NCBI GenBank assembly: GCA_038850735.1
Contig: JAWCLO010000004.1
Span: 1 to 64,000 of the forward strand
From: Methanomassiliicoccales archaeon
GTDB taxonomy: Archaea > Thermoplasmatota > Thermoplasmata > Methanomassiliicoccales > JACIVX01
Reading direction: 5' to 3'
Length of the DNA stretch: 64,000 nt
The notes beneath the pieces were generated by a model. That model saw only the letters and a program-made list of their open reading frames with translations, was not told the DNA's origin and did no database searches. Both the position numbers and the translations under genes were made by a program. Below are positions 24,058 to 47,137 of this stretch, piece after piece (position 1 is the stretch's first letter; every line of letters starts with the position of its first letter).

Positions 24058-24362
24058 TTGCCAGGAGAGGGAGGGCAGCCGACGGTGAAGGATATATTCC
24101 TTCGCTGAGGAAGGTTCCCCCTCCTAGAGAAGGTGGGCCACGTAAGTGGCTGGGCGAGAGCCCAGGCAAGGGCACAGAAACGACACAGCTTCGACCGAGG
24201 ATGACTCGCTCGGCGATGACGTTGGTCGAAGATTTGGTGAAACGGCGACACCCCACCGGAGCAAGCCCAAACAGCTGGGATGACTACTCAGGACCAGCGG
24301 GTAGGGCGCTTAGTTGAATGCTGCCTGAAACAGAAGGGGACCTACTACCCTCACCTGGCAAT
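24058..24362 (+). ncRNA. rnpB: RNase P RNA
   Basis: Catalytic RNA for tRNA 5' maturation. The 5' TTGCCAGG-A-GAGGG pairs with the 3' CCCTC-A-CCTGGCAA as helix P1. Conserved archaeal blocks are visible: GCTGAGGAAGGTTC (about 24104), ACAGAAACGAC (about 24174), GGTGAAACGGCGACACC (about 24236), GGAGCAAGCCCAAACAG and the 3' ACAGAAGGGGACC (about 24330). A TATA-like TTAAATATT lies about 25 bases upstream. The stretch is clearly GC-richer than its surroundings. Short frames over it are spurious. Confidence 0.93.
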
Positions 24363-42735: not shown

Positions 42736-44322
42736 TTAGTGAGAACCCTTCTTTTCTTTTTCAAGCCTTTCTATTTCATATTGCTTTGCTTTTGCATTTA
42801 TTTCCTGATCCTTCGGAAGCGCCTTCTTCGCTATCGCCAAAGCATCCATTCCAAGTTCAAATAAAGTAGGATGAACATGAATACCTTGACGAGTCACAGT
42901 TTCAAAAAGCTTGCCAGGGTTCATGATTCCCTTGGGATCGAGGGCATCTTTTATTGCCTTCATGTATTTAACGCTATTTCCCCTTATTATACTAAGATTC
43001 GATGCAAAGAACATGCCAAACCCAAGGGGTCTGCCTCCCCGCTGGAATGCAAGGTCTGAATACTTTTTGTTGAAAGCCAGTGACGTCATCGTTTTTACCA
43101 AACTCTCAGAATCAAAGAGATAATATGGCATGAACATCGCAGTGTTTCTGTCAGCCATTATACCTATGACAGCACCTTCCATCTTCATTGCTTCCATCAA
43201 ATCATATGTCGCTTTAGCCATCGAGGAAAATTCCCTCAATGGAACAACAACCTCTCCAGGAATTTCACCCACACCAATTTCTCTAGATCTGTACTCATAG
43301 CAACGCTCTTCCCACTCATGTATGGCGACTTCATCTGGCATTTTCTTCGCGCCGTGAGCTTCCATAATCCTATCGAGAACTTGTTCTTCGTGCTTGACAA
43401 CCTCGCTGTCGCCCTCAAGCGTGAAGCTGAGCATGCTTCCCACCTCAGGAGCATGCTTCCCTGCCTTCCTGAGCAACTCATAATGCTTCCTATCACCGAA
43501 TGAAATATGAAGTGGTTCAATTCGAGATCTGCACACCTCCATAAGCGCGGGACCGATTGAAATCAAGTCGTCCATTGCATATGATACTGGCTTCATAAGT
43601 TCTGGGGCCGGATACAGCTTAAAAGTGACCTTTGTAACAACTCCAAGGGTACCCTCTGCGCCAACAATCAACCAATTGAGGTTGTATCCAGAGCTGTTAT
43701 CACAGAGCTCGTCAAAGCCAGTATTAATTATATTTCCATCTGGCATGACAACTTCCATATTTCTTATATTGTTGCCAGCAGAACCGTACTTGTAATTGCC
43801 TATACCTATGCCCCCAGTAGAAATCCAACCTGCGAGCGTGGCACTTGGGAAACTGCTTGGATATGATCCGAGAAGAAGACCCTTACTCATACAAGCGTCG
43901 TACACTTGTTTCCACGTGGCACCGGCCTCAGCTGTTACGCAGAGATTCTCCTTGTCGATTTTCAAGATTTTATTCATGCCTCCGCTCATGTCGATCAAAA
44001 TCCCACCAAAAGCGGAAACACTGCCTCCTAAGCCCCATGTCGAACTTCCTCTTGGTGTAACGGGAACGCCTTCTTCAGCTGCAATCCTAACAATTTTCTG
44101 TACGTCCTCCGTCGAGCGTGGTCTAACTACAACATCAGGTATGTTCTTAAAAGCCAATTGAGCCTCCTTTGGAAGAGGAGCGAGGTCATGACTGTAAAGT
44201 AGCCTCTCAAATTCACTCGTCTTTACATTGTCCTTTCCCAGTGCATCTTCAAGCTTTTTCACGTATCGCAGGACCGCTTCCGATTTTGCGCTCCTTTCTG
44301 AATCCATCTGACCGTCCTCCAC
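42736..44322 (-). CDS. FAD-linked oxidase (GlcD/D-lactate dehydrogenase family)
   Basis: A 528-residue flavoprotein of the VAO/PCMH family. The FAD domain shows VRPRSTEDVQKIVRIAAEEGVPVTPRG, the SSTWGLGGS pyrophosphate loop and WISTGGIGIGNYKYG. The C-terminal cap has the usual DPKGIMNPGKLF. It may oxidise D-lactate, glycolate or another 2-hydroxyacid. No Fe-S partner gene lies next to it. Convergent with the YHS gene. Confidence 0.88.
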   Translation of the reverse strand: MEDGQMDSERSAKSEAVLRYVKKLEDALGKDNVKTSEFERLLYSHDLAPLPKEAQLAFKNIPDVVVRPRSTEDVQKIVRIAAEEGVPVTPRGSSTWGLGGSVSAFGGILIDMSGGMNKILKIDKENLCVTAEAGATWKQVYDACMSKGLLLGSYPSSFPSATLAGWISTGGIGIGNYKYGSAGNNIRNMEVVMPDGNIINTGFDELCDNSSGYNLNWLIVGAEGTLGVVTKVTFKLYPAPELMKPVSYAMDDLISIGPALMEVCRSRIEPLHISFGDRKHYELLRKAGKHAPEVGSMLSFTLEGDSEVVKHEEQVLDRIMEAHGAKKMPDEVAIHEWEERCYEYRSREIGVGEIPGEVVVPLREFSSMAKATYDLMEAMKMEGAVIGIMADRNTAMFMPYYLFDSESLVKTMTSLAFNKKYSDLAFQRGGRPLGFGMFFASNLSIIRGNSVKYMKAIKDALDPKGIMNPGKLFETVTRQGIHVHPTLFELGMDALAIAKKALPKDQEINAKAKQYEIERLEKEKKGSH

Positions 44323-44497
44323 ATGGATAGATTTTCGGATTTGGAAGCGATAACCTTTCGTGCTATTTTAAATCTACCACGCAAATAATGGGATATTCCG
44401 AACTCAATGAAGAATTGACATCAAGACAACAGATTTCCGCTAGAATCTTGATCGCCTAAATCGACACTTAGCACGTAGAATTAGCATGTAGGAGAAA
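44323..44497. other. AT-rich spacer between the GlcD-like gene and the orphan RNA
   Basis: No coding feature seen. The minus-strand T-rich run at 44496-44504 (TTTTTCTTTC) sits at the predicted 3' end of the RNA and may be its terminator. Confidence 0.4.
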
Positions 44498-44792
44498 GAA
44501 AAATCCTGCCCAAAGATTACGGTGCACCGGGCGTCTTACCGGCTACCGCTTTCACCAGCAACTCCGTAAAGCCACTGGTGAGAGGCGCAACCGATTGCCC
44601 ATCTTTGCTGCAATGTTCCACCTCGAGAGGCGGATCACATGCAACATATCCGTTGCTCAACCTGGGGCCATGGCAACCAGGGATGAGGAACGGTTTACGG
44701 CTTTCGCCGCAGATGGGTTCCAGATATGTCGCACCGTCCAAAGACGATGTTTCATATCCGTTTTCCCCTTGTGCATTCCGCCTTTGGGCAAT
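44498..44792 (-). ncRNA. orphan structured non-coding RNA, about 295 nt
   Basis: A GC-rich island in AT-rich surroundings with no convincing protein frame. Read on the minus strand, 5' TGCCCAAAG (44790-44782) pairs with 3' CTTTGGGCA (44515-44507), closing the whole unit. Inside lie GATATG/CATATC (44758-44723) around a CATCGTC/GACGGTG hairpin, a long helix CCCATCT/AGATGGG (44717-44711 with 44604-44598), CGGC-GAAA-GCCG with a GNRA loop (44709-44698), a 14-pair arm CCGTT-CTCA-CCTGG against CCAGG-TGAG-AACGG (44650-44693), CCGCCTC/GAGGTGG, and CACCAG/CTGGTG (44580-44553) with an inner UACG loop. Wobble pairs in two stems are G-U only on the minus strand. TATAAATA lies about 25 bases upstream. It lacks the SRP and RNase P hallmarks. 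Confidence 0.75.
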
Positions 44793-44812
44793 ATTTACTA
44801 CCTCTCACGCCA

Positions 44813-44820
44813 TATTTATA
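44813..44820 (-). promoter_or_regulatory. TATA box of the orphan RNA
   Basis: TATAAATA on the minus strand, a near-perfect archaeal TATA box, spaced about 25 bases from the start of the predicted closing helix. Confidence 0.65.
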
Positions 44821-45103
44821 GATTAGCTCGAAGAATCCTGATGAAACCATCACTATTGATGGATCACATGCAATGGACCGCGATTCCAAGTGATTAGATT
44901 AGAAATTACGTAGTCAATTAAAAACGAAACTTCACTAGAAGCGTATTAAAGCAACCGGAATGCAACAAGATTATACTGAAACAGATTGCCGCGAAGAAAG
45001 AATTGTTGGAAATATAGACTCTAATCAGCACTTTAGAGTTCGACCCAGAATCCAAGATCTTCGAATGAACTTGTATTTCACGAATTATGAATCTGCAAAT
45101 ACA
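44821..45103. other. intergenic region upstream of the orphan RNA promoter
   Basis: AT-rich sequence between the RNA promoter and the end of mobB. A plus-strand 64-codon frame (44960-45154) has no recognisable content. Nothing else was seen. Confidence 0.4.
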
Positions 45104-45880
45104 TCAATCCTCTTGCATCTTCTCATTTTTCCTGACACTTTTGTCTTGAATTGAGATTATGATTGATTTCGGCGAATCGACTCTCTTTAAAGATTGAACC
45201 ATTCCAACAACGATGTTAGAGATCAGGTTTGAGACAAATCTATTGAGCGGAATCTCCTCTCCATCAGCGTAAAGTCTTACCAATACTTCCGCACGGTTGC
45301 GGCAGTTCTCTATTAGATCCGTGCCTGCCGCAATTGCACTTGCCATCTCACTACAGTTTTGATGCCCACATTTACCGCAATTGAGCTGCGGCAAGGTGCG
45401 GAGAATACGCTCAATTTTAATTTCATTTTCAATCAATTCGATCGCGCGTTTCCAACAGTCTGTTGCTTCTTTGCATCGTAAAAGAATTGGCTCCTCTGCA
45501 TCTGCGTTACCTATGACTATTTTTGGAATTTTAGATTTCTTAAATCCTTCAACAAGAATGATGTCTGGCTGAGCAATTTTTTGCAATAGAGAAAAAGCAT
45601 CGTCAAGCTCAAGTGATTTGTTGTAATAGAGCACCGTCTCATTTGGGGATATGCCTAAAACCGGAGAACTACCAGCATTGAGGTGTCGTGTAGTATCTTT
45701 TCCTTGAGGAACAAGAGAATCTCTGGTATGTACGTGTTTGATTGACGACACTTTTATACCTCTAGAAGTCAACTCACCGCTTAAATACTCCAAAAGGTGG
45801 GTCTTGCCTGAGTTAGATTCTCCTACGATAGCAACAATCAAGTCATCATCTCCAATATGGTTCCCTCTTCGCGACTGCAA
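45104..45880 (-). CDS. mobB: molybdopterin-guanine dinucleotide biosynthesis protein MobB with C-terminal Fe-S domain
   Basis: Helps attach GMP to molybdopterin for Mo/W enzymes. The N-terminal MobB GTPase domain has Walker A GESNSGKTH (about 20-28), and LVEGFKKSKIPKIVI is conserved. Residues about 165-215 form an extra four-cysteine domain (LNCGKCGHQNCSEMA, IENCRNRAEV) of the PF04060 Fe-S type, typical of methanogen MobB proteins. The annotated start overlaps moaA by 35 bases; a TTG at 45841 directly after the moaA stop is also possible. Likely serves formylmethanofuran or formate dehydrogenase-type enzymes. Confidence 0.9.
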   Translation of the reverse strand: MQSRRGNHIGDDDLIVAIVGESNSGKTHLLEYLSGELTSRGIKVSSIKHVHTRDSLVPQGKDTTRHLNAGSSPVLGISPNETVLYYNKSLELDDAFSLLQKIAQPDIILVEGFKKSKIPKIVIGNADAEEPILLRCKEATDCWKRAIELIENEIKIERILRTLPQLNCGKCGHQNCSEMASAIAAGTDLIENCRNRAEVLVRLYADGEEIPLNRFVSNLISNIVVGMVQSLKRVDSPKSIIISIQDKSVRKNEKMQED

Positions 45881-46754
45881 TTTTGAATAGGTTAATTAAT
45901 TCATCATCACTCGAGTTTCTTCTCAAAGCAGATATCAAATCAACATTTCCATCCTCTCTGAGCAAGCATGGTTTTAGATAACCATCAGAGGTTATTCGAA
46001 GGCGGTGGCAGTGAGCGCAAAAAGCTGTGTTGTGCATGGGCCTTACAATTTCTACCTCTTCGGGCAAATAATATTTCTTTCGTTTATGAAGATCGCGTGC
46101 TACAATTTTTAGTGCGATGGATTCTAGTCTCTTTTCTATAGGCTCAAGGCTACAGTAATAGTCCTTGAAGAATCTTTCATTAACCCTTTCTTTTTGTGTT
46201 TCAAGTTCAATAAGCTGAAGAATTGCTCCAACACTTTTAGAATACTTCATTAGTTCATCAATTTCCATTTCGTTGATTCCCTTCATAACTACAGTATTGA
46301 TCTTAACAGGAGTTAATCCAGCCTCGATTGATTTGCCAATGCCATCGAGCACTTCACTAAGCAGATCCTGCCCCGTAATCTTACGATAAACTGAGCGATT
46401 GAGCGTATCTAAACTCACATTAACGCGAGACAATCCTGCTCTTTTCAATCTTGGCGCTAAGCAGGCCAGGAGCGTGCCGTTTGTTGTCATTGAAATCTCC
46501 TCAAAATAATTAGAACACTTAGAAATGATGTCAACGATATCGTCTCTCATCAATGGCTCGCCACCAGTTATCTTGAGCTTCTTGATGCCAAGCTTCGATG
46601 CAATTGAGCAGATTCTTGATATTTCACCGGCAGACATTTCACCGACTGCTTTTTGCTCACCTTCCCTGTGGCAGTAAAAACAATTAAGATTGCAACGCTG
46701 CGTAACGGAAATTCTCAAGTTGGTGATCTCGCGACCATAGGAATCCACCAGCAT
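45846..46754 (-). CDS. moaA: GTP 3',8-cyclase MoaA
   Basis: Radical SAM enzyme for the first step of molybdopterin synthesis from GTP. The 302 residues carry the radical SAM cluster CNLNCFYC (Cys 21, 25, 28), TGGEPLM, and the C-terminal cluster cysteines (CAHCHRLRIT and a later CLLRE). Normal archaeal length. First gene of a moaA-mobB unit. Confidence 0.96.
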   Translation of the reverse strand: MLVDSYGREITNLRISVTQRCNLNCFYCHREGEQKAVGEMSAGEISRICSIASKLGIKKLKITGGEPLMRDDIVDIISKCSNYFEEISMTTNGTLLACLAPRLKRAGLSRVNVSLDTLNRSVYRKITGQDLLSEVLDGIGKSIEAGLTPVKINTVVMKGINEMEIDELMKYSKSVGAILQLIELETQKERVNERFFKDYYCSLEPIEKRLESIALKIVARDLHKRKKYYLPEEVEIVRPMHNTAFCAHCHRLRITSDGYLKPCLLREDGNVDLISALRRNSSDDELINLFKIAVAKREPYWR

Positions 46755-46909: not shown

Positions 46910-47137
46910 TTAGGATTCCTTCAAATCTTTAATAAGTGATCTGAGTTCCTTGATTTTCTCATTAAGTTTTTCGATTTTCTCCTCGTTTTTTTCCCTAATT
47001 TTCTCGTATTCTTCTCTGTTAATCCTTTTTTCCTTCATCCTTTTTTCTGCATCATCTATAATTGCCCTGTACTCACTCTTGATCGCGTTGATTTCTTTGA
47101 TCTTCTTTTCAAGGCGCTCGATTTTGGAAGAGAACAT
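46910..47137 (-). CDS. small coiled-coil protein
   Basis: A 75-residue, highly charged protein predicted to be one long coiled coil (heptads from about residue 5 to 72; rich in Lys, Glu, Ile and Arg). No domain recognised. The ATG is preceded by an AGGAGATAT-type site. It could bind a partner or dimerise; function unknown. Confidence 0.6.
   Translation of the reverse strand: MFSSKIERLEKKIKEINAIKSEYRAIIDDAEKRMKEKRINREEYEKIREKNEEKIEKLNEKIKELRSLIKDLKES

Follow-up and report, generated by a model that had tools for sequence, protein, structure and literature searches.

What is encoded in the interval upstream of the glcD-like gene in our window, a 64,000-nucleotide stretch of a Methanomassiliicoccales contig that was analyzed as a whole? 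The original prediction placed here an orphan structured RNA of ∼295 nt on the minus strand, with its own TATA box and terminator. This observation is confirmed, and its interpretation is supported. Positions 44508–44789 very probably represent one copy of a real and new class of structured RNA, which is new by the catalogues and the literature that we examined. Members of this class would be non-coding, highly structured RNAs of about 265–307 nt that are independently transcribed in Methanomassiliicoccales.

The RNA gene of the window is a type A copy of ∼282 nt on the minus strand. The predicted unit stands, with refined boundaries. The covariance model R2 matches it with 147.3 bits (E 6e-39 in its own genome, 4e-42 locally), and its assignment is also based on the 30-member alignment A5. 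The two ends are paired in helix P1, in which GCCCAAAG (44782–44789) binds CUUUGGGC (44508–44515), the latter marking the 3′ end of the conserved RNA. The predicted closing helix thus exists but comprises 8 bp instead of 9. The most conserved 5′ segment, GGCGGAAUGCA (44771–44781), is invariant across the nine members of alignment A3 and pairs with positions 44519–44527 (the GCACCGUAA region), and this pairing (helix 10–12/342–344) shows double changes.

Three arms follow, all on the minus strand. The P2 arm (44721–44760, CGGAUAUG..CAUAUCUG) has the apical hairpin CAUCGUC-UUUG-GACGGUG. In the P3 domain (44598–44717), the base CCCAUCU/AGAUGGG encloses P3a (44697–44710, with a GAAA loop), P3b (44650–44693), and P3c (44606–44646). 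The P4 arm (44538–44595, 9 + 2 + 13 bp) carries a UACG loop and an apex that differs by subtype; it corresponds to the three-part hairpin arm that had been described. Likewise, the stems CATCGTC/GACGGTG and CCGCCT(C)/(G)AGGTGG were both found as claimed, and the GNRA- and UNCG-type loops are the GAAA and UACG loops, respectively. In the covariation-supported model, P1 joins the ends and a conserved internal-loop segment leads to a multi-arm junction with P2, P3, and P4. In f3 copies such as that of L066 (2743–3049), the junction strands GGGGAA and AGUACCC resemble a loop E (bulged-G) motif, which is not the case in f1.

The minus strand folds with −146.1 kcal/mol and a z-score of −8.3 (100 dinucleotide shuffles), compared with −4.9 for the plus strand of the same region. 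For several relatives, the fold energy of the single sequence is ordinary (z around −3 whichever strand is folded); the case for the structure is carried by covariation. Covariation in relatives, which had been suggested as a check, is strong: 33 of the 61 consensus pairs in A3 show compensatory double changes, and in A5 (30 members) both partners have changed in 30 of 36 pairs. The fraction of paired cells in A5 is 88.7% and drops to 41–45% when the partner column is slid by one position, whereas the number of double-change cells falls from 187 to 38–63. None of 500 shuffles equaled A5 on any of five measures. A5 was aligned by MAFFT without structure, and the structure is the RNAalifold consensus of the same alignment, so that part of the excess over the slid versions is expected; the double-change count is far beyond that expected excess. 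The class thus has a covariation-supported structure beyond controls.

The double changes affect five of the seven modeled pairs of P1 (97% of cells paired), seven of the eight apical pairs of P2, all seven pairs of P3a, and six of the seven modeled pairs of P4. The base of P3 covaries in A3, whereas the outer elements P3b and P3c are variable and not alignable between families. The original argument that G-U wobbles assign the RNA to the minus strand extends to all 30 members, in which 109 paired cells are G-U and 35 are A-C, which fixes the strand.

Close relatives of the RNA are separated by indels of 1, 2, 4, 5, and 10 nt. These break the frame, and therefore the region holds no conserved reading frame, in line with the claim that a believable protein frame is absent. 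A protein-coding reading is rejected on the basis of these indels together with inconsistent frames, and two plus-strand ORFs of 82 and 100 amino acids within the RNA are without support as genes. A mobile-element or phage origin is unlikely, given the single syntenic locus and a pattern scan of viral contigs that gave no match.

How far does the class extend? At the DNA level, a search across 101 genomes revealed homologues both in the family of the window genome and in a second family. Blast alone overlooked most relatives, and covariance models were required. Alignment A3 consists of nine full copies aligned with the invariant 5′ and 3′ segments; the search models comprised 108 positions (5′ part) and then 292 positions (full length, from 30 copies). 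The full-length model matches 34 of 147 Methanomassiliicoccales genomes at E ≤ 0.01 (best E 3e-58), and the RNA-bearing genomes belong to four families of the order (f1, f3, f4, and f6). The RNA is thus an orphan with respect to Rfam but not a singleton, being a multi-copy family of the order. No match was obtained outside Methanomassiliicoccales in samples of 400 genomes of the class and 390 of the phylum, a search with stricter filters that weak or distant relatives may escape. Public records with the 5′ motif carry names of Methanomassiliicoccales MAGs, except for one Spirochaetes contig (L115), which is a chance match (R2 aligns 72 nt of it with E 0.1). Two further families of the order, f2 and f5, have kept the glcD locus, from which the RNA is missing. 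This loss shows that not every member of the order depends on the RNA.

None of the RNA families in Rfam 15 accounts for the region. With Rfam 15 at gathering score, the whole window yielded only RNase P RNA and one tRNA, both outside the RNA region. The Rfam search that the original prediction had called for gave no credible match for 44200–45100 even at E ≤ 10, and E-value scans of seven homologous loci gave no convincing match to any family. A known Rfam RNA is rejected by these scans. Among individual families, no Rfam guide RNA (C/D or H/ACA) matched the RNA, and OLE, ROOL, and GOLLD were not matched in the region. The latter are ornate RNAs of large size that are found in bacteria and whose function is unclear (PMC9723947 and PMC12286853); OLE has a length of ∼600 nt. 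They share with the present RNA that they are large, structured, independently encoded, and clade-restricted, but they are bacterial, and OLE is longer. Our literature search found no report of an RNA of this kind.

The flanks of the RNA argue for a separate transcription unit. The predicted TATA box, TATAAATA (44813–44820, minus strand), occupies positions −31 to −24, counted from the base with which P1 begins, and is 23 nt before the closing helix (∼25 had been claimed). Its position is kept in 30 aligned copies, which share an A/T block that is strongest from −30 to −25, with an information of 0.5–1.05 bits per position. The case for a TATA box is taken from this per-position profile instead of an A/T-hexamer background figure, for which the hexamers had been picked post hoc. 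The announced T-rich run, TTTTTCTTT (44495–44503, minus strand), directly follows P1 and is a probable oligo-T terminator, and the flank downstream of P1 is T-rich in most of the 30 copies. Transcription would start where P1 begins or close by, with the +1 position predicted at 44789 or a few nucleotides away, and would stop in the T-rich stretch. In several genomes the RNA genes are arranged in tandem, with three copies ∼400–460 nt apart in G027 and G051 and two copies in G003, G004, G005, G033, G042, and G064. The members of these arrays each have their own TATA-like box. Judged from these sequence features, independent transcription of the RNA is likely.

The tandem copies fall into types A and B and a third type in f3. 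In a tree of 43 copies, the first copies of f3, the third copies of f3, and the f6 copies form separate groups. The B type (f1, f3, and f4) is placed close to the A copies of f1, the deep nodes having modest support. The apex of P4 reads CUGCAG in most A copies of f3; those of f1 mostly have UUGCGG, and the window copy has UUACGG. In the B paralogue the apex forms the near-invariant hairpin CAUUUUGNGGAAUG, which is present a single time in each of 21 genomes, always at the RNA locus and all in f1, f3, and f4; none was found in f2. The B-hairpin pattern CATTTTGNGGAATG is present in L121, L122, L140, L073, and others, and the B-apex pattern exposed B copies beside A in genus g5 that had been overlooked by the models. 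In the window genome no B copy was found, including a search of 44830–45104 with filters off. The apex of the f6 copies is GAGGUGAU (loci L071, 7826–8108, and L124, 1043–1313, among others). This would be the complement of AUCACCUC near the 3′ end of archaeal 16S rRNA, and nothing is drawn from this complementarity because the other subtypes are without that apex.

We consider it reasonably likely that the molecule as a whole is a trans-acting structured RNA, which would work as a stable ribonucleoprotein. In such a particle, the core of P1 and the junction could be a common protein-binding platform, and the apex of P4 (CUGCAG, UUGCGG, UUGNGG, or GAGGUGAU) could be a subtype-specific recognition element. 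With a common core and subtype-specific apices, we propose that the tandem paralogues would be different versions of the same particle. This division of labor between platform and apex is a tentative suggestion that may well prove incorrect. To our knowledge, few large structured RNA classes besides rRNA, SRP RNA, and RNase P RNA are known in archaea. The class described here combines strong covariation, occurrence in four families, distinct tandem paralogues, and a locus of methanogenesis-marker genes. If it is expressed, this raises the questions of which role a lineage-specific ribonucleoprotein has in methanogens with a methylotrophic metabolism and how the RNA became dispensable in two families (f2 and f5).

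A candidate protein partner is encoded nearby. The array is flanked on one side by methanogenesis-marker genes (marker 7), DUF123, and c9 and on the other side by glcD. The c9 gene (46910–47137, minus strand) encodes a small basic coiled-coil protein of 75 amino acids (pI 9.3) and could be a partner of the RNA or a mere case of synteny. Its homologue has no match in Pfam and NCBIfam, and a c9 profile gave only weak matches to solved structures (E 0.25 and worse). An undescribed archaeal ribonucleoprotein with two to three tandem RNA genes, a common core, and different invariant apical hairpins, working together with c9, is conceivable but unlikely in this full form. As an alternative, the stable RNA might sequester c9 or be chaperoned by it, which would make the locus a two-gene ribonucleoprotein locus. 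This alternative would fit the basic character of c9 (pI 9.3–9.8), its restriction to families f1 and f3 (26 of 147 genomes), and its position immediately upstream of the array in f3 (in f1, c9 is separated from the RNA by moaA and mobB, which are located at 45104–46754 on the minus strand of the window and were not found at this place in f3). It would also fit the joint loss in f2 and f5: in G006, G011, G017, and G009 the sequence ahead of glcD looks like the end of the DUF123 gene plus a short gap, and therefore both the RNA and c9 are missing from the locus. However, f4 and f6 possess the RNA while c9 was not detected there, and f1 and f3 are perhaps sister groups, so that the overlap of c9 and RNA may reflect ancestry. 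We regard this alternative as unlikely.

Whatever the role of c9, a trans-acting RNA has to be weighed against a cis-acting 5′ leader (a riboswitch or RNA–protein element) that controls read-through or translation of glcD. Like such leaders, the RNA is highly structured and located upstream of a metabolic gene, the glcD-like gene of an FAD-linked oxidase (42736–44307, minus strand; PF01565 and PF02913), on the same strand wherever the locus could be read, and tandem aptamers are known to exist. Unlike them, each RNA copy, including those in tandem, has its own promoter motif, and glcD, a syntenic downstream gene outside the RNA unit, has its own TATA box, TTTAAAATA (44364–44372, minus strand), which is separate from the RNA. 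In most genomes, this second box (TTTAAAATA or similar) is conserved and precedes the start of glcD by ∼55–75 nt. As sequence evidence, a conserved TATA box that separates the RNA from glcD speaks against the leader reading, which we consider quite improbable. Moreover, the gap between the RNA and glcD reaches ∼900 nt (L067), although a B copy occupies part of it, and glcD persists without the RNA in f2 and f5. The adjacency itself says little, since it belongs to an extended block of genes that is conserved as such.

Catalysis by the RNA itself, as in a ribozyme, would be compatible with the size, the complexity, and the strongly conserved internal-loop nucleotides (GGCGGAAUGCA/GCRCCGUAA) of the RNA; Rfam scans matched none of the known ribozyme families, and such an activity appears very unlikely. 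A diverged and re-used duplicate of SRP RNA (likewise ∼300 nt long, transcribed independently, and with its ends paired in a helix) or of RNase P RNA (of similar size, multi-branched, ends joined) is extremely improbable despite these likenesses, as RF01857 has no match at E ≤ 10 in 44200–45100, RF00373 does not match the RNA at 44508–44789, the conserved blocks of both are not seen in the RNA (as had been stated), genuine SRP RNA is present in 20 of the 21 genomes searched, including another contig of the same genome (G000:C3:127552–127862, 171 bits), and the true RNase P RNA is located elsewhere in the window, as predicted, at 24063–24356 (225.6 bits, the sole RF00373 match in the window).

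The glcD matches themselves show two peculiarities in the families f2 and f5. The match of the f5 genome G009 (L128) contains one in-frame TGA codon, and in several f2 genomes (L135–L139) the match lies within an open frame of ∼910–925 amino acids, which suggests a domain fusion.
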